This document shows positions 5,499 through 38,360 of a DNA stretch of 39,193 nt, piece by piece (positions within the stretch are counted from its first letter, which is position 1; each line of letters starts with the position of its first letter). The stretch lies in the NCBI GenBank assembly GCA_017483665.1, contig JAFUVM010000090.1, forward strand, positions 1 through 39,193, in the 5' to 3' direction. Source of the DNA: Bacteroidaceae bacterium (GTDB lineage: Bacteria; Bacteroidota; Bacteroidia; Bacteroidales; Bacteroidaceae). The position numbers and the translations under genes are program-made. The notes beneath the pieces were generated by a model. That model did not search any database, was not told where the DNA came from, and saw only the letters and a program-made list of their open reading frames with translations.

Positions 5499-5516
5499 TG
5501 AGCTAAATCATTCTTT

Positions 5517-5613
5517 AATTCTTAATTCTCAATTCACAATTCACAATTATTTCTTTCGCCAAGCTTTAGGGCGTAGCCTAATTTTGAATTATGAATTATG
5601 AATTGTGAATTAT
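5517..5613. repeat. Heptanucleotide tracts forming an inverted pair
   Basis: Two 7-bp tandem tracts face each other: AATTCTT/AATTCTC/AATTCAC/AATTCAC at 5517-5544 and GAATTAT/GAATTAT/GAATTGT/GAATTAT at 5586-5613. They are largely complementary (AATTCACAATT against AATTGTGAATT) and enclose GGGCGTAGCCTAATT at 5569-5583. That 15-bp word recurs in exact inverse at 31278-31292. The second tract encodes the last residues (IIHNS) and the stop codon of the CDP-alcohol phosphotransferase. Confidence 0.8.
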
Positions 5614-6794: not shown

Positions 6795-7829
6795 ATGAAT
6801 TATCTGGACAGAAACGAATTTAACTTCGAACCATCGGAAAAAGTAATAGAGGCAATAAAGAACTTCGACCCGCACACGCTCTGCTTCTACACCCGCATCT
6901 ACGACCAGGGCAAGAAGAGCGTCATCAGCGTCCGCCTGAGCGAAATCTACGGCGTGCCCGAAGAGCAGGTGCTGCTGGGCTACGGCGGCGAGGAGATGCT
7001 GAAGAACGCCATCCACTACTTCCTCATGGAGGGTGACAACAAGACCATCCTCATCCCCGAGTTCTCGTGGTGGTACTATAACCGTGTGGCCGGCGAGTGC
7101 GGCGGTTCGTTCGAGATGTATCCCCTGCACGAGACGGGCGACACTTTCGCCTACGACGTGGACGAGGTCATCGCCTACACCAACCGCGTACATCCCCGCA
7201 TGCTGCTCCTCGCCTCGCCCAACAACCCGACGGGCAACAGCCTGACGAGCGAAGAGATAGGGCGCATCATGGAGAACATCCCCTCCGACACGATGGTGCT
7301 CGTGGACGAGGCATACGCCAGCTTCATCACCAGCGACGTGGACTACATCGCTCCCCTGGTGAACAAGTACAACAACCTCATCATCTCGCGCACCCTCTCC
7401 AAGTTCTACGGACTGCCCGGCCTGCGCGTTGGCTTCGCCTTCATCGGCAAGGGCCACGACCAGTTCCTCAGCTACTGCAACAAGTACCTTGGCTACAACC
7501 GCTTCTCGGAAGCCGTTGCCCTGGCTGCCCTGGAGAGCGATGAGCACTACCGCCGCGTAGCCAACGAGATGGAGTGGGACCGTCAGCTCTTCCAGAAGGA
7601 ACTCGGCAGCCTGCCCGGCTTCAAGGTCTACAAGAGCGTGGCAAACTTCATCCTCATCAAGTACCCGACAGCCATCAAGGAGAAGCTGCAGAAGGCGCTG
7701 GCCGACCAGAACTACAAGATTAAGTTCATGGCCGACAAGGGCCTGGAGGACTGCCTGCGCATCACCCTCGGACGCCGCGAACAGATTCAGGCTGTGGTGG
7801 ACACCATCAAGTCTTTAATTAAGAATTAA
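6795..7829 (+). CDS. PLP-dependent class I/II aminotransferase, HisC-like
   Basis: 344 residues, fold type I. Visible motifs are ASPNNPTGN (substrate/PLP contact), VDEAYASF (the Asp that pairs with the pyridine nitrogen), SRTLSKFYGLPGLRVGF (K is the PLP Schiff-base lysine) and LRITLGRREQ (carboxylate-binding Arg near the C-terminus). It resembles histidinol-phosphate aminotransferase and threonine-phosphate decarboxylase-like enzymes, which act on small phosphorylated amino compounds. No other his genes are nearby. The neighbours are a nucleotidyltransferase and a CDP-alcohol phosphotransferase, so production of an amino-alcohol phosphate or aminophosphonate head group is more likely than histidine synthesis. 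That function is inferred from context. The final residues (SLIKN) run into a heptad-like AT-rich tract. Confidence 0.8.
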   Translation: MNYLDRNEFNFEPSEKVIEAIKNFDPHTLCFYTRIYDQGKKSVISVRLSEIYGVPEEQVLLGYGGEEMLKNAIHYFLMEGDNKTILIPEFSWWYYNRVAGECGGSFEMYPLHETGDTFAYDVDEVIAYTNRVHPRMLLLASPNNPTGNSLTSEEIGRIMENIPSDTMVLVDEAYASFITSDVDYIAPLVNKYNNLIISRTLSKFYGLPGLRVGFAFIGKGHDQFLSYCNKYLGYNRFSEAVALAALESDEHYRRVANEMEWDRQLFQKELGSLPGFKVYKSVANFILIKYPTAIKEKLQKALADQNYKIKFMADKGLEDCLRITLGRREQIQAVVDTIKSLIKN

Positions 7830-7830
7830 A

Positions 7831-7920
7831 AATGAAGAATGAAGAATTTGCTACCGCCTTTAGCATCTCCTCTATGACATGTAAGGAGTGAGGGCGGTAG
7901 CAAATTCTTCATTCTTCACT
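7831..7920. repeat. Long inverted repeat (28-bp arms) carrying the word GAAGAATTTGCTACCGC
   Basis: Arms 7831-7858 and 7893-7920 are reverse complements with one mismatch and enclose 34 nt. The word GAAGAATTTGCTACCGC recurs at 27281-27297, so it is an interspersed element rather than a simple terminator. The outer parts of both arms are heptad tracts. It lies between the aminotransferase and the nucleotidyltransferase and could fold in their joint transcript. Confidence 0.85.
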
Positions 7921-7950
7921 CTTCATTCTTCACTCTTCATTCTTCATTCT
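7904..7950 (+). repeat. Heptanucleotide tract (ATTCTTC/ACTCTTC)
   Basis: Six 7-bp units plus a partial unit end directly against the ATG at 7951, forming the whole proximal leader of the nucleotidyltransferase gene. Confidence 0.85.
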
Positions 7951-8725: not shown

Positions 8726-8818
8726 GCCGCTTCCGAAATAAGAGCGTGCCGTGTTCGACATAAGAGCGTGGCGCGTTTGACATAAGAGCGTGCCGTGTTC
8801 GACATAAGAGCGTGGCGT
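8726..8818. repeat. 22-bp period tandem array, core ATAAGAGCG
   Basis: The core ATAAGAGCG starts at 8738, 8760, 8782 and 8804, exactly 22 bp apart. The intervening sequence varies around TTCGAC/TTCCGA and GTGCCGTG/GTGGCGCG. It lies between the nucleotidyltransferase stop and the terminator hairpin. The array shares its core and phase with arrays near 29167 and 38220. Confidence 0.9.
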
Positions 8819-8828
8819 GATAAAAGAA

Positions 8829-9041: not shown

Positions 9042-9080
9042 AGTATGCAACTTAACAATTTTGAATTTATCAATTTTGAA

Positions 9081-12000
9081 TTAATAGAGTGTCTTCTTCC
9101 CGTTCACGATGTTGATGCCTTTTTGCAACTTCTGCAGGCGCTGGCCGGCGAGGTTATAGATTTCTTCGCCCTTTAATTCTTCATTCTTAATTCTTAATTC
9201 TTCATTTAAGCCTGTTGCGTCGTCGTTGTCGAAGCGAAGTGCCTTCACGCTGGGGGCGGAAACCTCGATGTAGCCCTTGCCTGCGGCAATCGTGCTTCCT
9301 ACAACAGCCTGATAGAAAGCGATGCCCTCTGTGCCGTTGCCCAGGATGAACTGCTTGCCGTCGGCGGTGACGTCTTCCTTGGCAGCTTTCAGCAGGTTGC
9401 CTTCCAGGGCGGCAGGAGTCGTGGCAGGAGCAGACAGGACGAACATGCCGGGAGTAGCCTTCAGGATAACGGCCTCGCCTGCGGGTGCAGCCGTGACAGG
9501 ATTCAGGTGAACCTGACCTTCAATGACGGATTCTGTTACGGCAAAAGCTTCGCCTGCGGCCTTCGAGAAGTCCACATCCTTCGTTGCAACATAAGTGGCA
9601 TAGCCTGCGGCAGGAACGAACGTGACGTTGCTCTCGGGCAGCACCTCTGTGCCCTTGGCTCCGAAGTTGTCGAAGCAGAAGTAAGCAGGCGTGTTCATGC
9701 CGTAGGTGCCATTGTCTGTGCTGGTCAGCTCGAAGCCAATCTTAGCCACTTCGCCCAGGACGGAGAGGTCGACGTAGCGCCAGTCGTTGATGATGTAGGC
9801 CGTCTTCTCGTCGCGCAGGTCGGCCAGGTAGTATTCCTTCGTGGCGGTCTTGTTGTCGTCGGCATCATAGCCTGTGATGGTCAGCTTGAACCAGTCGCCC
9901 TTGTCGAACTTCTTGGCAGAAGCATCGCCGTTCGTCATCGAAGTGTAGGCATAGCTGCTGTTGGTGATGTAGAAGCCGGGCACTACGGCAGGCTCGGTGA
10001 GCAGCTCTACGTAGCACGGACCGTTGAAGGCAGCAGCATAGGCAACGCCATAGGTTGCAGAGCCGTCGTAGCCGCTGCCCACGATGTTGTTCCACTGGTC
10101 GTCGAGCGTCTCGAACTTCGTCTCGGCGCGGTTGGCGTAGCCGAACCAGTACCAGTAGTCGTAGTCGCTCATGCAGCCGCTGTTGAAGGCGAAGTCGCCG
10201 CTGGTGTAGAACTCGCGTTCGTCGTCGTCCTCTGTGCTGACGCTCATGTGTCCGTCGACAGGCTCGGTGATGTCCTCAACGTCCTCGAAGGTGGCAACGG
10301 CCAGAGTGACGGGCATGTCGACATCAACCGTCAGGGCAGGAACACGACCGAAGACGGCCGACTGCGAGATGGCGGTGAAGTTGGGAGCACGGCCTGTCAG
10401 CTTCGACGTGGAACGATGGTTGCCGACGGGGTCACCGAAACCGCCGATGCCCAGGACACCGTCGCTGAGCTCAATCTCTTTCTCCGTCCAGTCCTCAGGC
10501 ACGGTGAAGGTGACAGACTGCGCAGCGGCGTTGGAGCCGAATGTGTACTGGTTGGCCTTGCCGTTCTTTACGGTAATGCCTTCCGTTGCCTTCTTGTAAG
10601 ATAAGCCTGCCGAGAAGTTGTGGATGCCTGCCAGCTTGCCTGCGGGGTGATAGAGACCTGTGTACTGTACGGTGACTTCATCGCCGGGCTTCACGCTCGT
10701 CACGCTCTCGCCGCCCACGAGGATGTCGCGGTGGCAAGGCTTGGCGGTCAGCACCTGATAGAGGCTCTTGCCGGCTGCGTCGGTCAGGCAGACGATGTTG
10801 CGGCCCTTGGTGAGGTGCAGGGTATAGCTTCCGTCGTCGTTCTTCGTCACGCCTTCCGCAGAGAAGCCGTTATAGGAAGCGGCATTGGTGCCGATGACGG
10901 GACGGGCCAGGGTGACGGAGGCCACGCCTTCGGGTGTGAAGGTATAGTCGAAGCCGTCCTCTGTGTCGAGGTAGTAGAGCACGTCGAACTCGGCATCGAC
11001 ATTCTCCATCGAGAGCTTGGTGTCGATGGGATCGCCGCCGCCCCAGGGCGTCACAGTGGTTAGGTAGTCCTTATTAATAATAATGTTGGGCGTGATGTCG
11101 GTGGCAGCCTGGCCTACGGTAACGACGAAGGCTGCTGTGTTCTCCGGCCAGATGGCTCCCCAGTCGGCGCCGCCCACGAAGTCCTTCTTCGTCGTGCCGC
11201 TCCAGGTGTTGAGGTGAATGGCATCGTAGGTAACGAGCACGATGGCTGTGCCTTCGCCCACGGCGGTCAGGAGCTCGTCCTCTATCTTCACAACGGAATC
11301 ATCCTCCTGTCCGTTCACGTCCACGACGGTGAAGTGGAAGTCGGGCTCGATGAAGTAGTTGCTCGTGATGCCGTCGATGAGTTCCCAGTTGCGCAGGGGC
11401 AGCAGGTCGTAGGTGTCGCCTGCGCCGTCGAGCTGCAAGTGGCCTGCGGGATTGATGTTGAGGAACATGTCGCCCACGTTGTAGCCGCCGTTGGAAGCGA
11501 CGTCGCGGTCGATGAACTTCGGGTCCTTGGCCGTCAGGTCCTCGTCGGTGAAGGCGAGTTCAGGACGCTTCGCCTCGTCGATGCTCATGGTGAAGATGCC
11601 GCCTTGCGTCAGCTTGCCGGGAGCCGAGACGCGGTAGTTGTACTGCTGCTTGTCGGCCAGGCGATAGGTGTAGCTCTTGGTGCTGCCTTCGGTAGCGACG
11701 CTCTCGGGAGCCACTTCCTTGAACTTCACGAAGTGGGCCGTCTTTGTGCCTATGAACAGGGAAGCGTCGGCAGGTACGCTGATGGTGTAGAGCTGGCTCA
11801 TGGGAGCCTCGGCCTGGATGGTCGTGTTGAAGTTGACGGTTCCCGTGTAGGTGACGGGCAGATAGCCTTCTGCCTGGTGCTCTGCGGAGGGAACGAGGTC
11901 GACGTAGTAGGTGTTGCCGTTGAAGACGAGGAACATCTTGTGGCCGTTCGTGTACTCGCCCATCGTGGTGTTCACTTCGTTGCCGGCTTTGTCCGTCACC

Positions 12001-15853: not shown

Positions 15854-15924
15854 GAACTGAAGCCAGTGACACTTCGATTGTTGTGCTTTCTCCATATCCT
15901 TGTCCCGAGGCTGGTCTGTTTCTA

Positions 15925-16112
15925 TGCAGAGTGGCAGGTTTCCTGGCTCTTGCCCGGCAGCGCGTCTTCCCAGGGGTCATTTTCCCCCAGTGACGTGTTG
16001 GTGCGCTGCACGCAGAAGGCAATTACAGTAGCGGGCACTGCTCCGGTCTTCCACCGGATTCCCTCTCTACCCGTCGTTCCCTGCGGAAAGGCGGGTATCA
16101 CCATTTGCGCCG
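15925..16112 (-). promoter_or_regulatory. Cobalamin (B12) riboswitch
   Basis: The minus strand carries the B12 box AGCCAGGAAACCTGCC at 15948-15933. Upstream are the other conserved blocks in the expected order: GGTGATACCCGCC near 16102, GGGAATCCGGTGGAAGACCG, then GCAGTGCCCGCTACTGTAAT, and CACTGGGGGAAAATGACCCC before the box. This is the standard adenosyl/methylcobalamin aptamer layout. A promoter -7 box sits directly before it and the BtuB-like gene follows by about 140 nt, so the whole corrinoid operon should be repressed when cobalamin is plentiful. Confidence 0.95.
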
Positions 16113-16120
16113 CAAAGTTA
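16113..16120 (-). promoter_or_regulatory. Bacteroidetes -7 box (TAACTTTG) for the cobalamin operon
   Basis: TAACTTTG on the minus strand matches TAnnTTTG and lies about 10 nt before the first conserved block of the riboswitch, so the transcript would begin at the aptamer. Confidence 0.65.
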
Positions 16121-16250
16121 CGGAAAATTATGCAAACGGCAAAGGAGACTGTCGTTTTTTTCCTTTTAGCAAGGAAGAAAGTCCGTTTCTGCACACTATA
16201 AAATACGGAAGTCCGAATCATAAAATTCCGAAGCCCGCGGATAAAAACAA

Positions 16251-16332
16251 TTTCAAAAGCTCTGAAATATATTTCAAAGGCTTGGAAATAGATTTCAAAG
16301 GCACTGAAATATATTTCCAAGCCACTGAAAAA
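16251..16332. repeat. AT-rich 21-bp period array with GAAATATATTTC palindromes
   Basis: GAAATA starts at 16264, 16285 and 16306, with a degenerate unit at 16327; TTTCAAA(A/G) starts at 16251 and 16272. The spacing is 21 bp. Units 1 and 3 contain the perfect 12-bp palindrome GAAATATATTTC. The array lies in the ~380-bp intergenic space between the cobalamin promoter and the padR promoter, and could be a tandem operator or a structural repeat. I see no gene in this stretch. Confidence 0.8.
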
Positions 16333-24191: not shown

Positions 24192-24238
24192 AGATTCAGG
24201 ATTCGGGGGGCCTTTCCGCAAGCATACTTTCCAGTACT

Positions 24239-24301
24239 CCCGCGGTGGTACTGGAGTTTTCCCACGGTGGTACTGGAGTTTTCCCGCGGTGGTACTGGCA
24301 T
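24239..24301. repeat. 22-bp period tandem array, core CGGTGGTACTGG
   Basis: CGGTGGTACTGG starts at 24243, 24265 and 24287, exactly 22 bp apart, with TTTTCCC(A/G) between. A partial inverse copy, CCAGTAC, precedes the array at 24231. It is in the ~300-bp gap between the carboxypeptidase and tsaB. The rest of the gap holds the tsaB promoter and a GC palindrome, with no gene visible. Confidence 0.9.
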
Positions 24302-25269: not shown

Positions 25270-25278
25270 CCCCACCCT

Positions 25279-25327
25279 AAACTCTGAACTCTCAACCCTA
25301 AACTCTAAACACTCAACTCTAAACTCA
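25279..25327 (+). repeat. Heptanucleotide tract (AAACTCT type)
   Basis: Seven 7-bp units (AAACTCT, GAACTCT, CAACCCT, AAACTCT, AAACACT, CAACTCT, AAACTCA) fill the gap between tsaB and the GTG start at 25333. Confidence 0.88.
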
Positions 25328-25332
25328 AACAC

Positions 25333-25935: not shown

Positions 25936-27240
25936 ATGGCATCATTCATCATCGACGGCGGCCACAGGCTCCAAGGCGACATCATGCCCCAGGGCGCGAA
26001 GAACGAAGCGCTCCAGGTGCTTTGCGCCGTCTTGCTGACCGGCGAACCGGTGCGCATCAAGAACCTGCCCGACATTGCCGACGTGAACAACCAGATACAG
26101 TTGCTACGCGACATGGGCGTGGAGGTGACACGGCACGATGCGCACGACTACACCTTCTCGGCCGCCAGCCTCGACGACCGCTACCTCGGCAGCGAAGCCT
26201 ACATCCGCCGGTGCCAGCAACTGCGCGGCAGCGTGATGATGCTCGGGCCCCTGCTGGCGCGGCGCGGGCGAGCCATCGTGCCGAAGCCGGGCGGCGACCA
26301 GATAGGACGCCGGCGCCTGGACACACACTTCCTGGGCATGCAGAAGCTGGGCAGCCGCTTCACCTACGACGACACCCTACATATATATAATGTAACGGCA
26401 GAGAAACTCACGGGCTCGTACATGCTCCTGGACGAAGCCTCCGTGACCGGCACGGCCAACATCATCATGGCTGCGGTCCTGGCACAAGGCACAACCACCA
26501 TCTACAACGCTGCCTGCGAGCCTTACATCCAGCAACTTTGCCGCATGCTCTGCCGCATGGGAGCACGCATCGCAGGCATCGGCTCGAACCTGCTCACCAT
26601 CGAGGGCGTCACAGCCCTGCACGGCACGGAACACACCATACTGCCCGACATGATCGAGGTGGGCTCGTTCATCGGCATGGCGGCTATGGTGGGCAACGGC
26701 ATCCGCATTCGCGAGGTGGGCCTGCAGCACTTGGGCATCATCCCCGACACGTTCCGACGCCTGGGCATCTGCATCGAGCAGGACGGCGCTGACCTCGTCG
26801 TGCCCAGACAGGAGCACTACGAAATTGAGTCGTTCATCGACGGCTCGTTCATGACGCTGAGCGATGCGCCGTGGCCCGGCTTTACGCCCGACCTCCTGAG
26901 CGTCCTGCTTGTGGTCAGCACGCAGGCCAAGGGCTCGGTCCTCATCCACCAGAAGATGTTCGAGAGCCGCCTGTTCTTCGTGGACAAGCTCATCGACATG
27001 GGTGCGCAAATCATCCTTTGCGACCCGCACCGCGCCGTTGTCGTGGGGCACGACCGCCAGCGGCAGCTCCGCGCCGGACGCATGACGAGTCCCGACATCC
27101 GCGCAGGCATCGCCCTGCTCATCGCGGCCATGAGCGCAGACGGCACCAGCTGCATCGACAACATCGGGCAGATAGACCGCGGCTACGAGAACATCGAGGG
27201 GCGGCTCTGCGCCCTCGGAGCAAAGATAACGAGGGAATAA
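25936..27240 (+). CDS. murA: UDP-N-acetylglucosamine 1-carboxyvinyltransferase (MurA) with Asp in place of the catalytic Cys
   Basis: 434 residues. It transfers enolpyruvate from PEP to UDP-GlcNAc, the first committed step of peptidoglycan synthesis, in the cytosol. Motifs are GAKNEALQVLCAVLLT, RGSVMMLGPLLARRGRAI, PKPGGDQIGRRRLDTH and LDEASVTGTANIIMAA. In the loop that carries the active-site Cys115 of E. coli MurA (PGGCAIG), this protein has Asp121 (PGGDQIG). Asp at this place is known to keep activity and block fosfomycin alkylation, so intrinsic fosfomycin resistance is expected. It follows DUF4290 by 6 nt and precedes rimM. Confidence 0.95.
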   Translation: MASFIIDGGHRLQGDIMPQGAKNEALQVLCAVLLTGEPVRIKNLPDIADVNNQIQLLRDMGVEVTRHDAHDYTFSAASLDDRYLGSEAYIRRCQQLRGSVMMLGPLLARRGRAIVPKPGGDQIGRRRLDTHFLGMQKLGSRFTYDDTLHIYNVTAEKLTGSYMLLDEASVTGTANIIMAAVLAQGTTTIYNAACEPYIQQLCRMLCRMGARIAGIGSNLLTIEGVTALHGTEHTILPDMIEVGSFIGMAAMVGNGIRIREVGLQHLGIIPDTFRRLGICIEQDGADLVVPRQEHYEIESFIDGSFMTLSDAPWPGFTPDLLSVLLVVSTQAKGSVLIHQKMFESRLFFVDKLIDMGAQIILCDPHRAVVVGHDRQRQLRAGRMTSPDIRAGIALLIAAMSADGTSCIDNIGQIDRGYENIEGRLCALGAKITRE

Positions 27241-27243
27241 AGA

Positions 27244-27285
27244 GCGAAGAGTGAAAAGTGAAGAGTGAAGAATGAAGAGTGAAGA
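27244..27285 (+). repeat. Heptanucleotide tract (GTGAAGA type) with the GAAGAATTTGCTACCGC word
   Basis: Six 7-bp units, from GCGAAGA to GTGAAGA, begin 4 nt after the murA stop and lead into GAAGAATTTGCTACCGC (27281-27297), which also occurs twice, inverted, at 7841-7910. Confidence 0.88.
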
Positions 27286-27300
27286 ATTTGCTACCGCACT

Positions 27301-27328
27301 CAATGGTCAATGTTCAATGGTCAATGGC
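27301..27328 (+). repeat. Heptanucleotide tract (CAATGGT type) containing the rimM start
   Basis: Four units: CAATGGT, CAATGTT, CAATGGT, CAATGGC. The ATG used for rimM (27324) is in the last one. Confidence 0.85.
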
Positions 27329-29155: not shown

Positions 29156-29166
29156 AACACGGCACG

Positions 29167-29275
29167 CCGCGTCGGCCATAAGCGCCCTGCGCTTCCAAAA
29201 TAAGCGCCCTGCGCTTCCAAAATAAGCGCCCTGCGCTTCCGGGATAAGCGCACGCCGTGTCTGACGGCACGGCAC
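29167..29275. repeat. 22-bp period tandem array, core ATAAGCGC
   Basis: ATAAGCGC starts at 29178, 29200, 29222 and 29244, exactly 22 bp apart, with two identical units (29189-29210 and 29211-29232) between CTTCC and CCCTG flanks. Partial GGCACGCC words flank it. It lies between dxr and the protease gene. Confidence 0.92.
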
Positions 29276-31284: not shown

Positions 31285-31302
31285 CTACGCCCTTCGACAA
31301 CA

Positions 31303-31344
31303 ACTATGGACTATGAACTATGAACTATGGACTATGAACTATGC
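31303..31344 (+). repeat. Heptanucleotide tract (ACTATGA type) containing the start codon
   Basis: Six exact 7-bp units of ACTATG(G/A/C). Each holds an ATG in a rotating frame; only the last (31341) opens the long frame. Confidence 0.88.
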
Positions 31345-33005
31345 ACTTAGTTGACGCCATAAAGGAATACGACGACTTCCGCCAGCGCACACGCCAGACG
31401 GACCCGCTCCGTCTCATCGACACCCCTCTGCTGCGGCGCATCGGCGAGAAGGCCGACGAGCTGGGCCTGGAATGCTACGTCGTGGGCGGCTACGTCCGCG
31501 ACATCATCCTGGAACGTCCCTCGAAGGACATCGACGTGGTGGTAGCCTCACCCCCAGCCCCTCTCCGGGGAGAGGGGAGTTTCGCGGCAGAAAGCCTCCA
31601 TCCTCGGGGGGAGGTTGGAGGGAGGCTGGGGCCTGGCATCCTCCTTGCCCAAGCCCTTGCCAAGGACATGGGGCGAGGCGCACACGTCAGCGTCTTCCGC
31701 AACTTCGGCACAGCACAACTCAAATGGCACGGGCAGGAGATTGAATTCGTCGGAGCCCGACGCGAGAGCTACCAGCGGGACAGCCGCAAGCCCATCGTGG
31801 AGGACGGCACACTCGACGACGACCTGCATCGCCGCGACTTCACCATCAACGCCCTGGCCGTCTGCCTCAACAGGGAGCACTACGGCAAACTCATCGACCT
31901 CTTCGACGGACTGCTCGACCTGGAGGACGGCATCATCGCCACACCCCTCGACCCCGACATCACCTTCAGCGACGACCCCCTGCGCATGATGCGCTGCATA
32001 CGCTTCGCCACACAGTTGCGCTTCCAGATAGAGGACAAGACACAGGAAGCCCTCCGACGCAATGCCGAACGCATCAAGATTATCTCGCAGGAGCGCATCA
32101 TCGACGAGCTGAACAAAATCATGATGGCTCCCGCCCCGAGCATCGGCTTCATCGAACTGAGCCGCAGCGGACTGCTCCCCCTCATCCTCCCCGAAATCGC
32201 CGCCCTCGAAGGCGTAGAGACCCGCAACGGCCGCGCCCACAAGGACAACTTCTACCACACCCTCGAGGTGCTAGATAATATAAGTAAGGCCAGCCCCCTC
32301 CCCGCTCCCCCTTTGGGGGAGTGCCCCAATCTCGCTGAACAGGAAAGTATGAGCGGCAATGAGGCACTTCCCCAAAGGGGGAACGGGGAGGGGGCTTCAC
32401 TCTTCTTGCGTTGGGCTGCCCTCCTGCACGACGTCGGCAAGCCCCGCAGCAAGCGATGGGACAACCAGGCGGGCTGGACGTTCCACAACCACAACTACAT
32501 CGGGCAGAAAATGGTGGCACCGCTCTTCCGCCGCATGAAGCTGCCGACGGACGAACGCATGGCCTACGTCGAGAAGCTCGTCGGCCTGCACATGCGCCCC
32601 ATTGCCATCGCCGACGACGTGGTGACCGACAGCGCCGTCCGCCGCCTGCTCTTCGAGGCCGGCGAGGACATCGACGACCTGATGCGCCTCTGCGAAGCCG
32701 ACATCACCAGCAAGAACCGCGAGAAGAAGCGGCGCTTCCTCGAGAACTTCCAGCTCGTCCGAGAGAAGCTCGCCGACCTGCAGGCCCGCGACAACTACCG
32801 CACCTGGCACAACCCCATCACAGGCGAGGAAATCATGCAGACCTTCGGCCTCAAGCCCTGCCGCCAGATAGGCATCCTCAAACAAGCCGTCAAGGACGCC
32901 ATCTGGGACTCCGTCATCCCCAACGACCACGCCGCCGCCTTCCAGTTCATGCTCAACAAAGCAAAGGAAATGGGTCTGGAGCCAACCACACCCGCACAAA
33001 CATAG
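31341..33005 (+). CDS. cca: CCA-adding-type tRNA nucleotidyltransferase with HD domain, carrying two in-frame repeat insertions
   Basis: 554 residues. The nucleotidyltransferase head begins at ~48: CYVVGGYVRDIILERPSKDI and DVVV, with GTAQLKWHGQEIEFVGARRE and DLHRRDFTINALAVCL. The neck and RNA-binding region follow, then an HD domain (LLHDVGK, FHNHNYIGQKM). Such proteins add CCA to tRNA ends or act as tRNA/poly(A) nucleotidyltransferases. Two segments do not belong to the family: about 30 residues after DVVV (SPPAPLRGEGSFAAES...) and about 35 residues before LFLRWAALLHD (SPLPAPPLGECPNLAE...). Both are coded by GC-rich inverted repeats and keep the frame, which explains the protein being longer than family members. 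Activity is likely if both loops tolerate the additions. Confidence 0.9.
   Translation: MHLVDAIKEYDDFRQRTRQTDPLRLIDTPLLRRIGEKADELGLECYVVGGYVRDIILERPSKDIDVVVASPPAPLRGEGSFAAESLHPRGEVGGRLGPGILLAQALAKDMGRGAHVSVFRNFGTAQLKWHGQEIEFVGARRESYQRDSRKPIVEDGTLDDDLHRRDFTINALAVCLNREHYGKLIDLFDGLLDLEDGIIATPLDPDITFSDDPLRMMRCIRFATQLRFQIEDKTQEALRRNAERIKIISQERIIDELNKIMMAPAPSIGFIELSRSGLLPLILPEIAALEGVETRNGRAHKDNFYHTLEVLDNISKASPLPAPPLGECPNLAEQESMSGNEALPQRGNGEGASLFLRWAALLHDVGKPRSKRWDNQAGWTFHNHNYIGQKMVAPLFRRMKLPTDERMAYVEKLVGLHMRPIAIADDVVTDSAVRRLLFEAGEDIDDLMRLCEADITSKNREKKRRFLENFQLVREKLADLQARDNYRTWHNPITGEEIMQTFGLKPCRQIGILKQAVKDAIWDSVIPNDHAAAFQFMLNKAKEMGLEPTTPAQT
31551..31631. repeat. GC-rich palindromic element inserted in frame (first site in the CCA-adding-type gene)
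   Basis: An inner perfect palindrome CCCCTCTCC-GG-GGAGAGGGG lies at 31558-31577. The outer words CCCCAGCC (31552-31559) and GGCTGGGG (31624-31631) are inverse. The translated segment interrupts the nucleotidyltransferase head between DVVV and GILLAQALAK. Confidence 0.85.
32292..32396. repeat. GC-rich palindromic element inserted in frame (second site in the CCA-adding-type gene)
   Basis: The 34-nt arms 32292-32325 and 32363-32396 are reverse complements with two mismatches and contain CCCCCTTTGGGG. The whole is 105 bp (35 codons). It lies between the neck helix and the HD-domain motif LLHDVGK. Confidence 0.95.
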
Positions 33006-33128: not shown

Positions 33129-36100
33129 TTAATTCTCTGCCATGAGATTCAGGACCGTCACGAAGTCGGCGATATCCACCTTGCCGTCGCCATTGAGGTC
33201 GGCGGAAGAATCATTGGTTCCGTCGGCCATGACGTTGAGGACAGTAACTGCGTCAGCAATGTCAATCTTGCCGTCACCGTTCAGGTCACCCTCTATACCA
33301 TTGAGCGTCTTGCCGCCTTCGGCCTTCATCTGAGCCTTCGTCACGAATCGGAAGTTGCGGACCTTCAGCTGGAGGCTTGCATCCGAAGCTCCCTGATAAT
33401 AGATATACCAGCGAATACCATGGTCGGTAGCCGAACCGAAGTTCAGGCTGCTGATTCCCTTCTGGACTGTGACGTAAGCCGTCTGCCACTCGCTTGCTGC
33501 AGGGATTGCACTAAGTTCCTCTACAACATTTGTCAGGAAGTTAGGCGTGTTGTAGTACATACGTCCACCCTCAATGTCCTTCTCCGAAACGTAGTCGAAG
33601 GCAAGGATAACCTCGTCTTCCTTCAAGGGTTCATAGAGGTTCTTCAGGTCAAGATAAGGGCTGTTGCCGTTTGTCGTGATGTTGAATTCAAAGCCTTCCT
33701 GTTCGTAGTTCAGAAGCCTTGAGTCGGTAATCTCAAGATAGCTGGGATACTCAGCATAGAACTGTGCCTTGGCTTCCTTAGCTGCTTCTTCATCGGCGTA
33801 TGCACCTGCTTCCAGACTGTCGCGGACATCGTAGACAGCATCTTCGGCATCATAGACTCCGGCATATTCGAACCACTTGAGATAGACCTTTTCCGATGCT
33901 TTGAAGAGGTCGAGATATGCGTTCTTGGTCTTGTAGACGGACTGCATAGTCTCGCTGATGGTTTTCTCCGCTTCGTAGGTGGGGGCACCACTATTCTCGG
34001 CAAGGATTGCCTTTTGAGCAGCGCCGAAGCCAGGAGCGTCAGAGTAATCCTCTGCTTCTGTGGTTGACTCGTAGAGTTCGGTCAGCGTAGCGATACGTGC
34101 GGCATTGTACTCAGCGGCCTGGGCAAGAGCCTCAGCAGCGTCCGCCTCAGTTTCTCCGAGATAAACGAGGCCGAAGTTACCGATGCCGGTCCACTCATTA
34201 CCCTTAGTGCCCTCGTTCCTTACGCCGAAGGTCAGGTTGCCGTCGGTTACCTGAGCAACCAACGTGACGGCATAGCGTCCCTGGCCTATTGCATGAGACA
34301 TACCTTCCGGACTCCATACGACGTATGCCACCTCGACAGAGTCAACTTCGGGATTGCCTGTAGGCGCTTCGAAATCGCACTGATAGAGCACGTTGTCCTG
34401 ATAGCTGCCTGTCAGCCAAGCGTCCTCTTTGTTTTCAACGGCATCCTCGCGGATGACGGGGACATAGGTCTGAACGCTATTGGCATACGCCATAGCAGCA
34501 TAGTTGTAGCTGAGGCGGGAGCCGTTGGCACGGTAGGCAGCATTGAGCTTGAGCTGATAGAAGCCGTTCTTCATGCCTGTGAGCGTCTGGCTGACGTCGA
34601 ACTTAGCATTCTCGTTGCAGAACTCGGCAGCATAGTTCTCGCCGTCTGTTCCGCGGCGGAAGATGTAGCCGTCCCATCCTTCAGCCTCGCGTCCGAGGTT
34701 GTTGCCGGCCTCGTCCTTGAGCGTTTCGCCGGCCTTGGCGAATGTGCTGTTGACGATGAGCGAACTGATGTCGGTGCCCTTGCCATATCCTGCAGCAACA
34801 GCAGCGACCTTAAGAGACTCGAGGAACTCAGCTTCGGCCGTTACGACGCTGTCGGCCAGGACGTGTTCGTCGAGGATGTTCTTGGCAGAACCGTTGGGAT
34901 AAAGCTCGGAAGCTTCTTCGTCCTCGTTCAGGTAGTTCACGAAGATGGTCTTAGCCTCGCTGTCGGCCAGGTTGTTCTCCTCGAGATAAGTCTTGGCAGC
35001 ATCTACCTGCTCCTGATAGTAAGTATAGGCAGCAGCACTCTTGGTAATCTGCTCCTGGAGGCTTTCGATGACGTAGTTTGCACGGAAGAGAGCCTCCATG
35101 TTAAGGCACTCGTCAATGTCGCTGATTGCTTCCTCATACTGGTCGATGAGAGCCTGCTCTGCAATAACGTCATAGTCGAACTCGCCTGCCTTGGCGATGT
35201 ACTCGTCCTTGATTTCCTCGAACTCACTTTCTGTGCCGAAGTGCAGTTCGTTCATCTGGATGGCATTGCCACTGTAAGCTTTCGTGACGACAACCTTATA
35301 GTAAGTATACTCTTCGGTGGTCTCGGTGCTAAAGCCGAAGTAAGAAGGTTCTGCATTTACCGGATGTAACCGATCCTGGCCGATATTTTCCTTACTATCG
35401 ATGAGAACCCATCCTTCGGCATCCTTGGTGGCATTGCCATCATATTCGAAGTTAGCACCGTAGATGTACCATGTGCCCCAGTTGCGTCCGGGATAGGAGC
35501 CGGTATCGTTGCCTGTGGTCAGGGTGTAGAAGTAGGGATTCACGGGGCTTGCAGTGCGGAAGATGATGTAGGTGTCACCGTTCTCGTCGGCCTGTCCTCC
35601 CCACTTGGTGGCATTGATTGTGATGGGATTGCCGTCGTCGTCGGTGCCTTCCGTATTAAGTGCGATGCCGTCGATGAGGTTACCGTAGAAGCCGTCGCCC
35701 CACTCGCCGACGGTGTGACCGCCGAGCAGGATGTAGAGACCGTCGTTGCTGGCATTGATGATATCCTGCAGGTATTTTGTTTCGGCGTCTATCCCGTCGT
35801 TGTCGAGGTAGAGGTTCTCCAGGATATACTCGTAGGTGCCGCGAATGTACTTGGCGCTGGGACCTTCGTTCTCGCTGCTGTAGCCTTCGAACCAAGCGCT
35901 CAGGCTCTCGGAATCAAGGTTGGTATTGGAGAGCTCGTCGTAAACAGCCAGGTAGTTGGCATACTTCTCGGCAGATGCTGTGATAGCGTCCATTATCTCC
36001 TTGAGGTCGTTGTAGGCCTTCATCACGTCGGGAGCGTTGGTAGCATTCAGCAGAGTCTCGTACTTCTCCTTATATTCATTGATGTAGCCGATGTAGGCGG

Positions 36101-38168
36101 GTTCAGCTTCGGGATCGTAGTCCTCGAACTCAGCCACGAAGTCCTGACGGTACTCGTTCAGGTTGCCGAGGTTGTAGAATGTGAACTCGTTCATCTGCAT
36201 GGTGCCACCGCCTGCACTCTCCACTTCTATCCTGAAGTATTCGTAGGGTTCGGTGCATCCGATGGAGAGATTGATGTAGCTCTCGTATACATTGTAGGTC
36301 TTGAGTACGTCCGTGCCGACGTTGTTCTTCTCGTCGATGAGCACCCATTTGTCGGATTCGCGGGTAGCCTCTTCGTCGCTGTCGAAGTTGGCGGCATAGA
36401 TTTTCCACGTCTTCCAGTTACGGTCGGGGTAGCTGTACGTGTCGCCGCCGGTGACGAGTCCGTAGTATGTGGGCTTGATGGGTTCGCTGCTCTTGAAGAT
36501 GAGGTAGCCGGGGATGGTGGTGGTACACCACTTTGTGCTCTGGCTGTCGCCGTCGATGAGTTTGTCGTGCTCTTCTCCGCCGAAACCGCCGGAGCCGCTG
36601 AGGGCCTCGTAGGTAGCGTAGATGGGATCGTCCACAATCTTGACATTAGCCAGGATGTATTCGTTGACGCGCTTGGCTTCGGCCAGTGCCTCTGCACCCG
36701 TAAGCTGACGGTTGGCCTTGATGTAGGCGAAGTTTCCCACAGGGTATTCCGCATTGGGGGCGATGACGTCTGTCTCGCTGATCCATGCCGTGACGTATGT
36801 TTCGGCCTCGGCGTTCAGGTTGTCGTCGCTGATGTAGTTGATGGCTACGTTGCGGGCAGTAACCAGTTCGGCATAGCTGCCTGCGGAGGCATTGATGGCA
36901 TCTGTCATGACACCCACCTGGTCGTTCAGGCTGCCGATGGCAAAGGGACTTGTGGCAGCCTTGATTTGTGCGATGAGGTCAGCCATCTGGTCGAGCAGGG
37001 CTTTCTCGGCGAAGAGGTCGGGGTCATAGACGGCCTCGGCTGTACTGGCAAGCGCGTTCTTGTCGAGGGCGAAGGTGTATTCGTCACCCAAGGCGAACTC
37101 GCCCAGCTGGCAGTAAGTGTCGCCGAAGTTGCTGCCTATCTCCACTTTGAAGTACTGGTAGGCCTCCGAGGTTCCGGGGTCGAGGTTGAAGAAGACGGTG
37201 AACATGTTCTTGTCGGGCATTTCCTCGGCGGTGACGTTCTTGTCGTCGATGAGTACCCAGTTGTCTGATTCGCGTGCGGGCTTGCCGCCTGCGACATAGG
37301 CAGAGGCCATGCCGTAGACTTTCCAAGTCTTCCAGCCACGGTTTTTCCAACTGGCATTGTCAGTGCCTGTGACAAGCTTGCAGTAGGAGGGGACGATGGC
37401 ACGGGAGGTCTTCACGATGAAGTAGGGACTGCCTTCCCAGAAGAAGCCGTACTTCGTGGTGATGTCACCGTCGAAAAGTTTGTCCAAGGCTTCGCCGTCG
37501 CCATTGCCGGCTGTACCCTCGATAATGTTATAGACTACGGGCTCGTCGGTACCGGTCTCCTGATTGGCAAGGTCGTCGAGGTACTTGTCGAGGTCGCCCT
37601 TGGACCCGAGTCCCCATTCAGACATCTGCTGATAGACATTGGCACCTTCTACGGTCCGCTCCACCTCAATCCAGTAGTACTGGTAGGCTTCCTTGGGAGC
37701 TTCGCTGAACTGCAGGTTTGCCACGCCGAAGTCTGCAGCGGGCAGCGGTTCGCCGTCCTTGTTGTCGATGAGCACCCAACCATCTGCGCCGCGGACGGCG
37801 TCGGCATCGCTCTCGAAATTGCCGCCATAAATCTTCCATGCCTCCCAGTTGCGACCAGGGTTGCTGCCCGTGTCGTTGCCGGTGACGAGGAAGTACCATT
37901 CGGGCACAACGGCTTTTTCGGCCTTCACGATGACCCACGACTCGGTGGAGGAGTCTGCGGTGTTGCCAGAGGGGTCGAACCAGTGTCCCCACTTGGAGCT
38001 TGTCTTAGTGTCCACCAGCTTGGCATAGCCTTCGCCGCCTGTGCCGCCGACACCGTCCAATGCCGTGAGCTTGACATACTCGGCCCACGCACTCTGAGAG
38101 GCCATCATCATCGCCAAGGCGAAGAAGCACGACCAAAGAGAGCTTGAAGATGTAAAGATTCTCTTCAT
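33129..38168 (-). CDS. Giant secreted protein with four discoidin-like (F5/8C) modules and a C-terminal dockerin
   Basis: 1679 residues with a Sec signal peptide (MKRIFTSSSSLWSCFFALAM...AWA). Four related modules lie at ~30-190, 215-370, 515-690 and 840-1005. Each has a SSKWG/TTKYG/STKWC/ATKWG motif, a (V/L)TGxDT...PxRNWxxWKIYGxNF segment, a WVLID strand and an AYQYYxxE(V/I) strand, as in carbohydrate-binding F5/8 type C domains. Helical linkers join them. Residues ~1150-1370 and ~1490-1620 are further beta-sandwich segments. The C-terminus is a type I dockerin-like pair: DLNGDGKIDIADAVTVLNVM and DLNGDGKVDIADFVTVLNLM. The dockerin suggests attachment to a cohesin partner outside this window. 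Role inferred: surface or complex-bound glycan binding; there is no catalytic domain that I can recognise. Confidence 0.85.
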   Translation of the reverse strand: MKRIFTSSSSLWSCFFALAMMMASQSAWAEYVKLTALDGVGGTGGEGYAKLVDTKTSSKWGHWFDPSGNTADSSTESWVIVKAEKAVVPEWYFLVTGNDTGSNPGRNWEAWKIYGGNFESDADAVRGADGWVLIDNKDGEPLPAADFGVANLQFSEAPKEAYQYYWIEVERTVEGANVYQQMSEWGLGSKGDLDKYLDDLANQETGTDEPVVYNIIEGTAGNGDGEALDKLFDGDITTKYGFFWEGSPYFIVKTSRAIVPSYCKLVTGTDNASWKNRGWKTWKVYGMASAYVAGGKPARESDNWVLIDDKNVTAEEMPDKNMFTVFFNLDPGTSEAYQYFKVEIGSNFGDTYCQLGEFALGDEYTFALDKNALASTAEAVYDPDLFAEKALLDQMADLIAQIKAATSPFAIGSLNDQVGVMTDAINASAGSYAELVTARNVAINYISDDNLNAEAETYVTAWISETDVIAPNAEYPVGNFAYIKANRQLTGAEALAEAKRVNEYILANVKIVDDPIYATYEALSGSGGFGGEEHDKLIDGDSQSTKWCTTTIPGYLIFKSSEPIKPTYYGLVTGGDTYSYPDRNWKTWKIYAANFDSDEEATRESDKWVLIDEKNNVGTDVLKTYNVYESYINLSIGCTEPYEYFRIEVESAGGGTMQMNEFTFYNLGNLNEYRQDFVAEFEDYDPEAEPAYIGYINEYKEKYETLLNATNAPDVMKAYNDLKEIMDAITASAEKYANYLAVYDELSNTNLDSESLSAWFEGYSSENEGPSAKYIRGTYEYILENLYLDNDGIDAETKYLQDIINASNDGLYILLGGHTVGEWGDGFYGNLIDGIALNTEGTDDDGNPITINATKWGGQADENGDTYIIFRTASPVNPYFYTLTTGNDTGSYPGRNWGTWYIYGANFEYDGNATKDAEGWVLIDSKENIGQDRLHPVNAEPSYFGFSTETTEEYTYYKVVVTKAYSGNAIQMNELHFGTESEFEEIKDEYIAKAGEFDYDVIAEQALIDQYEEAISDIDECLNMEALFRANYVIESLQEQITKSAAAYTYYQEQVDAAKTYLEENNLADSEAKTIFVNYLNEDEEASELYPNGSAKNILDEHVLADSVVTAEAEFLESLKVAAVAAGYGKGTDISSLIVNSTFAKAGETLKDEAGNNLGREAEGWDGYIFRRGTDGENYAAEFCNENAKFDVSQTLTGMKNGFYQLKLNAAYRANGSRLSYNYAAMAYANSVQTYVPVIREDAVENKEDAWLTGSYQDNVLYQCDFEAPTGNPEVDSVEVAYVVWSPEGMSHAIGQGRYAVTLVAQVTDGNLTFGVRNEGTKGNEWTGIGNFGLVYLGETEADAAEALAQAAEYNAARIATLTELYESTTEAEDYSDAPGFGAAQKAILAENSGAPTYEAEKTISETMQSVYKTKNAYLDLFKASEKVYLKWFEYAGVYDAEDAVYDVRDSLEAGAYADEEAAKEAKAQFYAEYPSYLEITDSRLLNYEQEGFEFNITTNGNSPYLDLKNLYEPLKEDEVILAFDYVSEKDIEGGRMYYNTPNFLTNVVEELSAIPAASEWQTAYVTVQKGISSLNFGSATDHGIRWYIYYQGASDASLQLKVRNFRFVTKAQMKAEGGKTLNGIEGDLNGDGKIDIADAVTVLNVMADGTNDSSADLNGDGKVDIADFVTVLNLMAEN

Positions 38169-38219
38169 TTTGTTTGGTTTTTGAAGTTATTAATAAGGTT
38201 AACTAATACTGTTCTGCTT

Positions 38220-38360
38220 GCTCTTCCGAAATAAGCGCCGTGCTCTTCCGAAATAAGCGCCGTGCTCTTCCGAGATAAGCGCCGTGCTCTTCCGGGATAA
38301 GCGCCGTGCTCTTCCGAAATAAGCGCCGTGCTCTTCCGGGATAAGCGCCAGGCTCTTCCC
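38220..38360. repeat. 22-bp period tandem array (six units plus a partial), core ATAAGCGC
   Basis: GCTCTTCC starts at 38220, 38242, 38264, 38286, 38308, 38330 and 38352. Each full unit continues (G/A)-rich into ATAAGCGCC. Variation is confined to GAA/GAG/GGG before ATAAG. The array is ~50 nt upstream of the dockerin-protein start. The minus strand has no stop codon in any frame across it, which makes spurious short reading frames. Confidence 0.95.

Follow-up and report, generated by a model that had tools for sequence, protein, structure and literature searches.

The three arrays of the window, that is, the whole 39,193-nt stretch of a Bacteroidaceae genome that was analysed (contig JAFUVM010000090.1 of assembly GCA_017483665.1), belong to a population of non-coding tandem repeats with a 22-bp unit found throughout the genus, a constant-size repeat class in which the length of the unit persists among species and its sequence does not. 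The first-pass annotation had claimed three arrays of the core ATAAG(C/A)GC at a strict 22-bp period, and all 14 cores lie exactly where it placed them, at 8738-8804 (four cores), 29178-29244 (four) and 38231-38341 (six), with every step equal to 22 bp and no core elsewhere in the window. None of 100 dinucleotide shuffles reached 14 cores (mean 1.66, maximum 5), and Tandem Repeats Finder (TRF) returned period 22 for each of the three. Array 1 (8734..8819, plus strand, about four units of the ATAAGAGCGTGCCGTGTTCGAC type; TRF and core search) has an NTP-transferase gene (+) on one side and a DUF4465 gene (-) on the other; array 2 (29156..29275, plus strand, four cores, TRF span 29178-29251), whose end units read AACACGGC... 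and ...GCCGTGTC, lies between dxr and an M50 protease gene (rseP-like); and array 3 (38219..38359, plus strand, 6.4 units of ATAAGCGCCGTGCTCTTCCGAA; TRF and core search) lies upstream of a dockerin-bearing ORF on the minus strand (33129-38168). The distance of 20-50 nt from a gene end or start that had been given for the arrays needs correction for array 3, which begins 51 nt from the ATG of ORF 33129-38168 and is therefore at a gene start; the first cores of arrays 1 and 2 are 32 and 23 nt past a stop codon. A fourth 22-bp array of different sequence, found by TRF at 24238..24298 with no strand assigned (2.8 units of TCCCGCGGTGGTACTGGAGTTT), is without the ATAAG core and was also detected, as a gap with a lag of 22, in a comparison of syntenic gaps. 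At gathering scores Rfam gave no match at the arrays and only a cobalamin riboswitch elsewhere in the window.

In the source genome (G000, which includes the window; 3.06 Mb in 150 contigs, 78% complete), the genome-wide core search that the same annotation had proposed as a check returned 306 ATAAGNGC-N14-ATAAGNGC pairs at 22 bp versus 2 for a reversed control pattern, so that further arrays do exist. A 394-kb sample of G000 stretches, window included and picked for the listed arrays that they contain, holds 27 arrays with 2-6 cores and 21 single cores, and its core-to-core distances up to 120 bp are exclusively 22, 44, 66, 88 and 110. The midpoints of all 27 core arrays fall between genes predicted by our own codon-based gene finder, which bears out the intergenic location first suggested. 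The unit is mostly ATAAG(C/A)GC-N3-GC(G/T)CTT-C-N4 and contains the imperfect palindrome AAGMGC-N3-GCKCTT; array copy number varies, and neighbouring units are alike. Relative to the strands of the upstream and downstream genes, the core strand shows no clear preference (++ 6, -- 7, +- 6 and -+ 3 among the 22 arrays with both neighbours).

Across the genus, it is the period that persists; the ATAAG(C/A)GC core is not the constant feature and is abundant in a few species only. Pairs of ATAAGNGC are numerous in just 4 of 139 same-genus genomes (G000 306, G144 216, G020 194, G077 190) and number 1-8 in ten further ones; CCGCANGCGG-N12 pairs are abundant in three (G027 278, G076 276, G155 69), with 1-2 in nine more, and AAGTACNNGTACTT-N8 pairs in one (G129 179), with 1-6 in four more, each of the three species words thus being abundant in one to four of the 139. 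Some 22-bp arrays of a genome are without its word, the one at 24238-24298 of the window among them. A universal core across the genus was rejected, since the recurring words are only short: GCGTGCC/GGCACGC is found near arrays of seven genomes, ATAAG...CTT in the units of G000 and RUG837, and a minor family of CACGTG type is common to G027, G076 and G036. Contigs C3, C20, C22 and C36 of G137 carry eight ATAAGAGC pairs whose unit is similar but not the same (e.g. ATAAGAGCAAGGTCCTACAGCC) and may represent an intermediate family.

Stretches totalling about 1.7 Mb in 26 genomes were surveyed for tandem repeats. The 534 arrays found comprise 389 non-coding ones (at most 30% in genes), 129 that lie more than 70% in genes, and 16 intermediate ones that were assigned to neither group. 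Among the non-coding arrays, 124 have a 7-bp step (the heptad kind); the other 265 have period 22 in 129 cases and 44 in 13, followed by 21 (13), 18 (12), 16 (12), 9 (12) and 8 (11), with 23 found four times and 20 twice. Period 22 was found in one of the 129 arrays located mostly in genes, and at least one non-coding 22-bp array in 20 of the 26 genomes. The survey stretches of G000, much of those of G020, one of G013 and those of ten synteny genomes lie near known arrays or dxr, the others being first contigs, and G000 and G020 together contribute 75 of the 129 non-coding period-22 arrays.

Replacement of the unit can be followed within a single gap. Between dxr and rseP, 22-bp arrays occur in eight species with six different unit sequences, namely the ATAAGCGC type in G000, GCAAAGACCTATACCTCTTTGA in G005 (RUG606), the CCGCACGCGG type in G076 and G027, the CACGTG type in G036 (RGIG9965), the CTTAACCATTAT type in G024 and G012 (RGIG9433) and the AAGTACACGTACTT type in RUG837, the types of G000 and RUG837 having ATAAG...CTT in common. 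Close species without a significant array there have gaps of 12-40 nt (G008, G025, G006, G013 and others), 78 nt (G077) or 104 nt (G035). The comparison draws on the 56 of 61 genomes in which dxr was found, 30 of which gave loci, and on named relatives reached via dxr (80 of 586 kept), mostly ruminant or other herbivore gut genomes labelled Bacteroidaceae, Prevotellaceae or Bacteroidales. Three of the 30 genus loci (L139-L141), in which dxr and rseP overlap, were dropped, two of the 80 named loci (L169, L189) were without an rseP match beside dxr, and duplicate loci were counted once (L145=L116, L149=L122, L150=L124). At dxr identities below about 75% (403 kb), the dxr neighbourhoods hold non-heptad arrays of period 22 in four cases (2.0-3.2 copies), 21 in four and 23 in two, and the nearer loci (147 kb) hold three arrays of period 22; because some of the 80 named loci beyond that line belong to the genus, the split was not used as a test of what lies outside it. 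Across 13 syntenic gaps in 11 species, the arrays concentrate in the same few gaps, seven species having one between dxr and rseP and six of the 11 between a guanylate-kinase gene and a cytidylyltransferase-like gene. Species pairs with a common array-bearing gap number 39, against 10.8 expected under even placement (0 of 20,000) and 16.6 under gap-length weighting (p 0.0003), and the fullest single gap has p 0.0007 (uniform) or 0.026 (length-weighted), a test that is generous because close species share arrays by descent and it treats related species as independent. The genus is unusually well suited to asking why some bacteria keep tandem repeats whose length is fixed but whose sequence changes: in its many species a given gap may be empty, hold an array or hold another one, and such comparison could separate selection on spacing, dispersal and sequence replacement.

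The length of the unit is held despite considerable drift of its sequence. Among 168 adjacent unit pairs from five genomes, 614 of 2,088 non-core sites differ (29%; 24-45% across units), and of the 180 core spacings up to 60 bp in five genomes, 169 are 22, ten are 44 and one is 43. Spacings in G077 are 22 (32 cases) or 44 (five), and a G129 pattern with any spacer of 0-30 gave distances of 22 and 44 only, among the matches listed (of 200). The irregular spacing in relatives that the first-pass annotation had named as counter-evidence was therefore not encountered in the relatives examined. Array-free gaps in three close species pairs contain 16 indels per 122 substitutions over 1,062 sites and 13 gap comparisons (gaps with N, shorter than 20 nt, differing in length by more than 25 or less than 75% identical were excluded, as were two array gaps), and tens of length changes would therefore be expected in the arrays, by a yardstick that is small and has 7 of its 16 indels within heptad-repeat gaps. 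The spacings are not independent events, because the spacer order common to G129 loci shows copying of whole arrays; and since families share short words, the descent of all of them from a single 22-bp repeat could explain the constant length with no selection on it.

Close species can differ by a whole array. At two orthologous array sites with flanks 91-95% identical, G000 carries an array and G077 a short gap; the search covered about 0.37-0.39 Mb of each genome, and the 27 arrays of G000 gave these two sites, the 18 of G077 none. The empty dxr site of G077 retains GACACGGCACGG, which resembles end units of the G000 array, so that G077 may have lost the array by recombination just as well as G000 may have gained it. 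Many of the 22-bp arrays of G129 are enclosed by a dispersed element whose terminal inverted repeats are about 17 bp long (L256 3390-3545 and other loci), with a left flank TATGATAATCCGCAAAA...CCTATGGAAA and a right flank ATCTGACC...TTTTGCGGATTATCATA whose ends are inverted copies (a consensus by eye, from which single copies deviate). The left flank accompanies 11 of the 21 G129 arrays, the right flank 11 and both flanks nine; unit and spacer variants recur in identical order at several loci, and short direct repeats (6-8 nt) beside three copies, seen by eye only, are possible target duplications. Flanks that resemble another flank make up 20 of 54 in G000 and 29 of 50 in G020, no single flank being shared by the majority of arrays. 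In G000 the best match covers 150 nt at 81%, and three arrays account for the longer matches; part of the resemblances in the two genomes we took to be outlying units and heptad repeats. The end words ACACGGC (5') and GCCGTGT (3') occur in only 8 and 7 of the 27 G000 arrays and together in two, and for this reason fixed terminal inverted repeats were rejected for G000 and its arrays were not filed as MITEs.

The symmetry of the units and their ability to fold were examined together. The full-circle (whole-unit) palindrome score is below p 0.05 in 34 of 129 period-22 arrays, among them 2 of the 38 from G000. Arrays with other periods (16-32) reach this level in 9 of 63 cases, and full-circle palindromy was rejected as a defining trait on that comparison. 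The variable arm positions of the G000 unit do not pair as folded RNA would require: of the 64 units with a C-N-CTT arm (the other 25 of 89 were omitted), 33 combine C at position 6 with T at position 14. Because of this, and because both strands fold alike, an in-unit RNA hairpin was rejected as the main reading of the palindromic core. The CACGTG- and CCGCANGCGG-type cores leave too little loop for a hairpin inside one unit, which would fit recognition of double-stranded DNA, and we read the symmetry of the arrays as probably that of double-stranded sites rather than RNA. Dyad symmetry is widespread, though some arrays do not show it. Compared with a null in which the 22 columns are shuffled identically across all units, the 103 of 129 period-22 arrays that are at least 55 nt long fold better (mean z -1.68, median -1.07), and each of the 18 genomes, several of which contribute only one or two arrays, has a negative mean z; the transcribed strand folds better in 32 of 56 (p 0.12), no significant strand difference. 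Ten strands, both of the three window arrays and one each of four other dxr-gap arrays, were folded against dinucleotide shuffles, and nine have z -1.9 to -5.0; the exception is the minus strand of array 1 (z +2.0). When folded as RNA, five of the six families of the dxr gap gave good multi-unit folds (z -2.2 to -5.0 against dinucleotide shuffles), and long multi-unit hairpins are possible.

With respect to genes, the 123 arrays of period 22 or 44 with both neighbours (19 of 142, at stretch ends, being unclassified) lie in co-directional (77), convergent (29) and divergent (17) gaps, and these account for 62%, 14% and 24% of gap bases. Most arrays are closer to a stop codon than to a start codon: among the 77 co-directional ones, 58 have the upstream stop as the nearer of the two (median 56 nt, versus 171 nt to the following start). 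One of the exceptions is array 3 of the window, which precedes a start codon.

Our preferred reading, held tentatively and with the case for and against it nearly in balance, is that the arrays are tandem sites for a symmetric putative DNA-binding protein that needs two-turn spacing, and that they have spread as small non-autonomous elements. Each unit would be a site for this symmetric, probably dimeric protein; an array would work only if neighbouring sites are two helical turns apart, with the bound proteins touching along one face; the sequence word would change with the species' own protein and be replaced across the genome; and the arrays may serve the cell, at a guess, in supercoiling, in packing of the nucleoid or as insulators behind gene ends. 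The first-pass annotation had already suggested proteins bound along one helical face, or a product whose length is selected, and the suggestion is compatible with the nearly invariant spacing and with symmetry that is about equal on both strands, the protein itself being putative. Counting against two-turn sites, relaxed DNA completes two turns in closer to 21 bp than 22, full-circle symmetry reaches significance in only 2 of 38 G000 arrays, and short words are shared between families. That a fast-evolving putative chromosome-binding protein co-evolves with the 22-bp sites, so that spacing is conserved and the word is replaced genome-wide, is a further step that we consider unlikely as matters stand; species with replaced words have dxr proteins that are about 90% identical. 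If true, it would be a bacterial parallel to eukaryotic centromere satellites and their binding proteins. Apart from that step, the species-specific words could serve as probes for fishing out the candidate protein.

A somewhat unlikely but serious alternative is a selfish satellite library, in which an ancestral 22-bp repeat was inherited genus-wide, diverged, and was dispersed by transposition on MITE-like carriers and by recombination, its length being kept since whole units alone are copied or lost, with no host function or need for binding. The G129 element with its terminal inverted repeats and recurring order of unit variants is what such a library would produce, as are the whole-array difference at two of two orthologous sites, the similar flanks in G000 (20 of 54) and G020 (29 of 50), the CACGTG type in three genomes (G027, G076, G036) and GCGTGCC near arrays of seven, yet neither G000 nor G020 has a flank common to most arrays (best G000 match 150 nt at 81%), the virtual lack of 21- and 23-bp spacings where 29% of non-core sites differ goes beyond what a copying model requires, and the fold surplus in every sampled genome is not predicted by it. 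Improbable in our view is a function in RNA, by which transcribed arrays would form long hairpins at mRNA 3' ends and stop transcription, protect the mRNA or separate operon genes: the position of co-directional arrays near the upstream stop (58 of 77) and the folding of nine of ten strands speak for it, but no strand preference was found (32 of 56, p 0.12), the core strand is mixed relative to genes, the 6-14 pair is C with T in 33 of 64 G000 units, the minus strand of array 1 has z +2.0, and no terminator-like site was found on the plus strand at the dxr gap. Ordinary replication slippage or an assembly artefact, with the common 22-bp step a matter of chance, could draw on the varying copy number (2-7 cores), the likeness of neighbouring units and the fact that the genomes are draft assemblies, the dxr-named ones largely from metagenomes; it is made highly improbable by the same period with different sequences in 20 of 26 genomes, by the 306 G000 pairs against 2 for the reversed pattern, and by the period histogram, which already contradicts it.

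The first-pass annotation knew of no described family with these properties, which was mistaken. Tandem repeats outside coding DNA, with a unit of one size (20-23 nt) whose sequence is peculiar to each species, have been described in bacteria; a genome can hold several families, and all repeats of one species tend to have a short word in common. Small RNAs, or proteins that polymerise along DNA at regular intervals, have been proposed to explain them, 20-21 nt corresponding to two turns (Subirana and Messeguer, 2021; PMC8161180). That study covers Bacillus, with repeats of 20-21 and 52 nt, the latter partially conserved among strains (PMC8161180). On the parts of that source at hand, the window arrays belong to this known class, sharing with it the constant unit length, the species-specific sequence, the non-coding location, the several families and the short species word: one length is found across different sequences (129 of 265 at 22, 13 at 44), all 27 G000 core arrays lie between predicted genes, and one of 129 gene-internal arrays has period 22. 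The abstract of an earlier paper by Subirana and Messeguer (J Bacteriol, 2020) reportedly gives the two repeat sizes as 22/44 and 52 nt, and the agreement with this genus would then be exact. A word search of the main text of PMC8161180 gave neither 'Bacteroid' nor 'palindrom', and replacement of the unit in one orthologous gap at an unchanged step was not seen described in the parts of it at hand. Literature searches for 22-bp intergenic repeats in Prevotella/Bacteroidetes and for constant-size repeats gave no paper on this genus among the matches listed.

Porphyromonas gingivalis is a member of Bacteroidales. Its BrickBuilt family comprises 19 elements in which a 23-nt minisatellite lies inside a MITE (PMC4596501). 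As far as the available parts of that source go, the arrays here resemble BrickBuilt in their intergenic location, nearly identical unit length and terminal inverted repeats in some copies, the plan of the G129 element being similar, but the unit is 22 nt, the richest species have about 180-310 core pairs per genome, and G000 and G020 arrays are without a leader or tail common to most. The period of a CRISPR array, repeat plus unique spacer, is well above 22 bp; here the core-to-core period is 22, and the inter-core stretches of 8-14 nt are partly recurrent. REP and BIME sequences are abundant, extragenic, palindromic and variable between species, bind proteins, and have suggested roles in chromosome organisation and transcription termination; the REPs listed start with GTAG or GTGG (with or without a preceding T) and alternate in orientation within BIMEs (PMC2817692). 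The likeness, judged on part of that source, extends to abundance, extragenic site, palindromic character and difference between species, but the units here stand head to tail, and neither the G000 nor the G129 unit contains GTAG or GTGG. The RAYT domain PF01797 was found in 9 of 22 genomes and in none of G020, G076, G005, G012, G024, G036 and G008 (62-89% complete), among others, and REP spread driven by RAYT was set aside as probably not general.

Heptamer repeats (TAACTGA and relatives) are intergenic tandem repeats of Bacteroidetes and others, and in Beggiatoaceae they mostly precede start codons (PMC4679880). By the parts of that source at hand, their 7-bp unit makes them a class separate from the 22-bp arrays; similar repeats also occur in the window, with 7-bp-step units such as ATTCTTC, AATTAAG, AACTATG and others, at 5510-5613, 7817-7950, 9052-9206, 25274-25332, 27240-27327 and 31302-31347. 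The cobalamin riboswitch lies at 15916-16120 on the minus strand (86 bits), and near it, at 16250-16330, is a strongly palindromic 21-bp array of 3.9 ATTTCAAAGGCTCTGAAATAT units, a unit also present in G077. The minus-strand ORF at 33129-38168 (1,679 aa) bears a C-terminal type I dockerin domain (PF00404, E 1.8e-6), which is of interest for cellulosome-like assemblies in a Bacteroidales.
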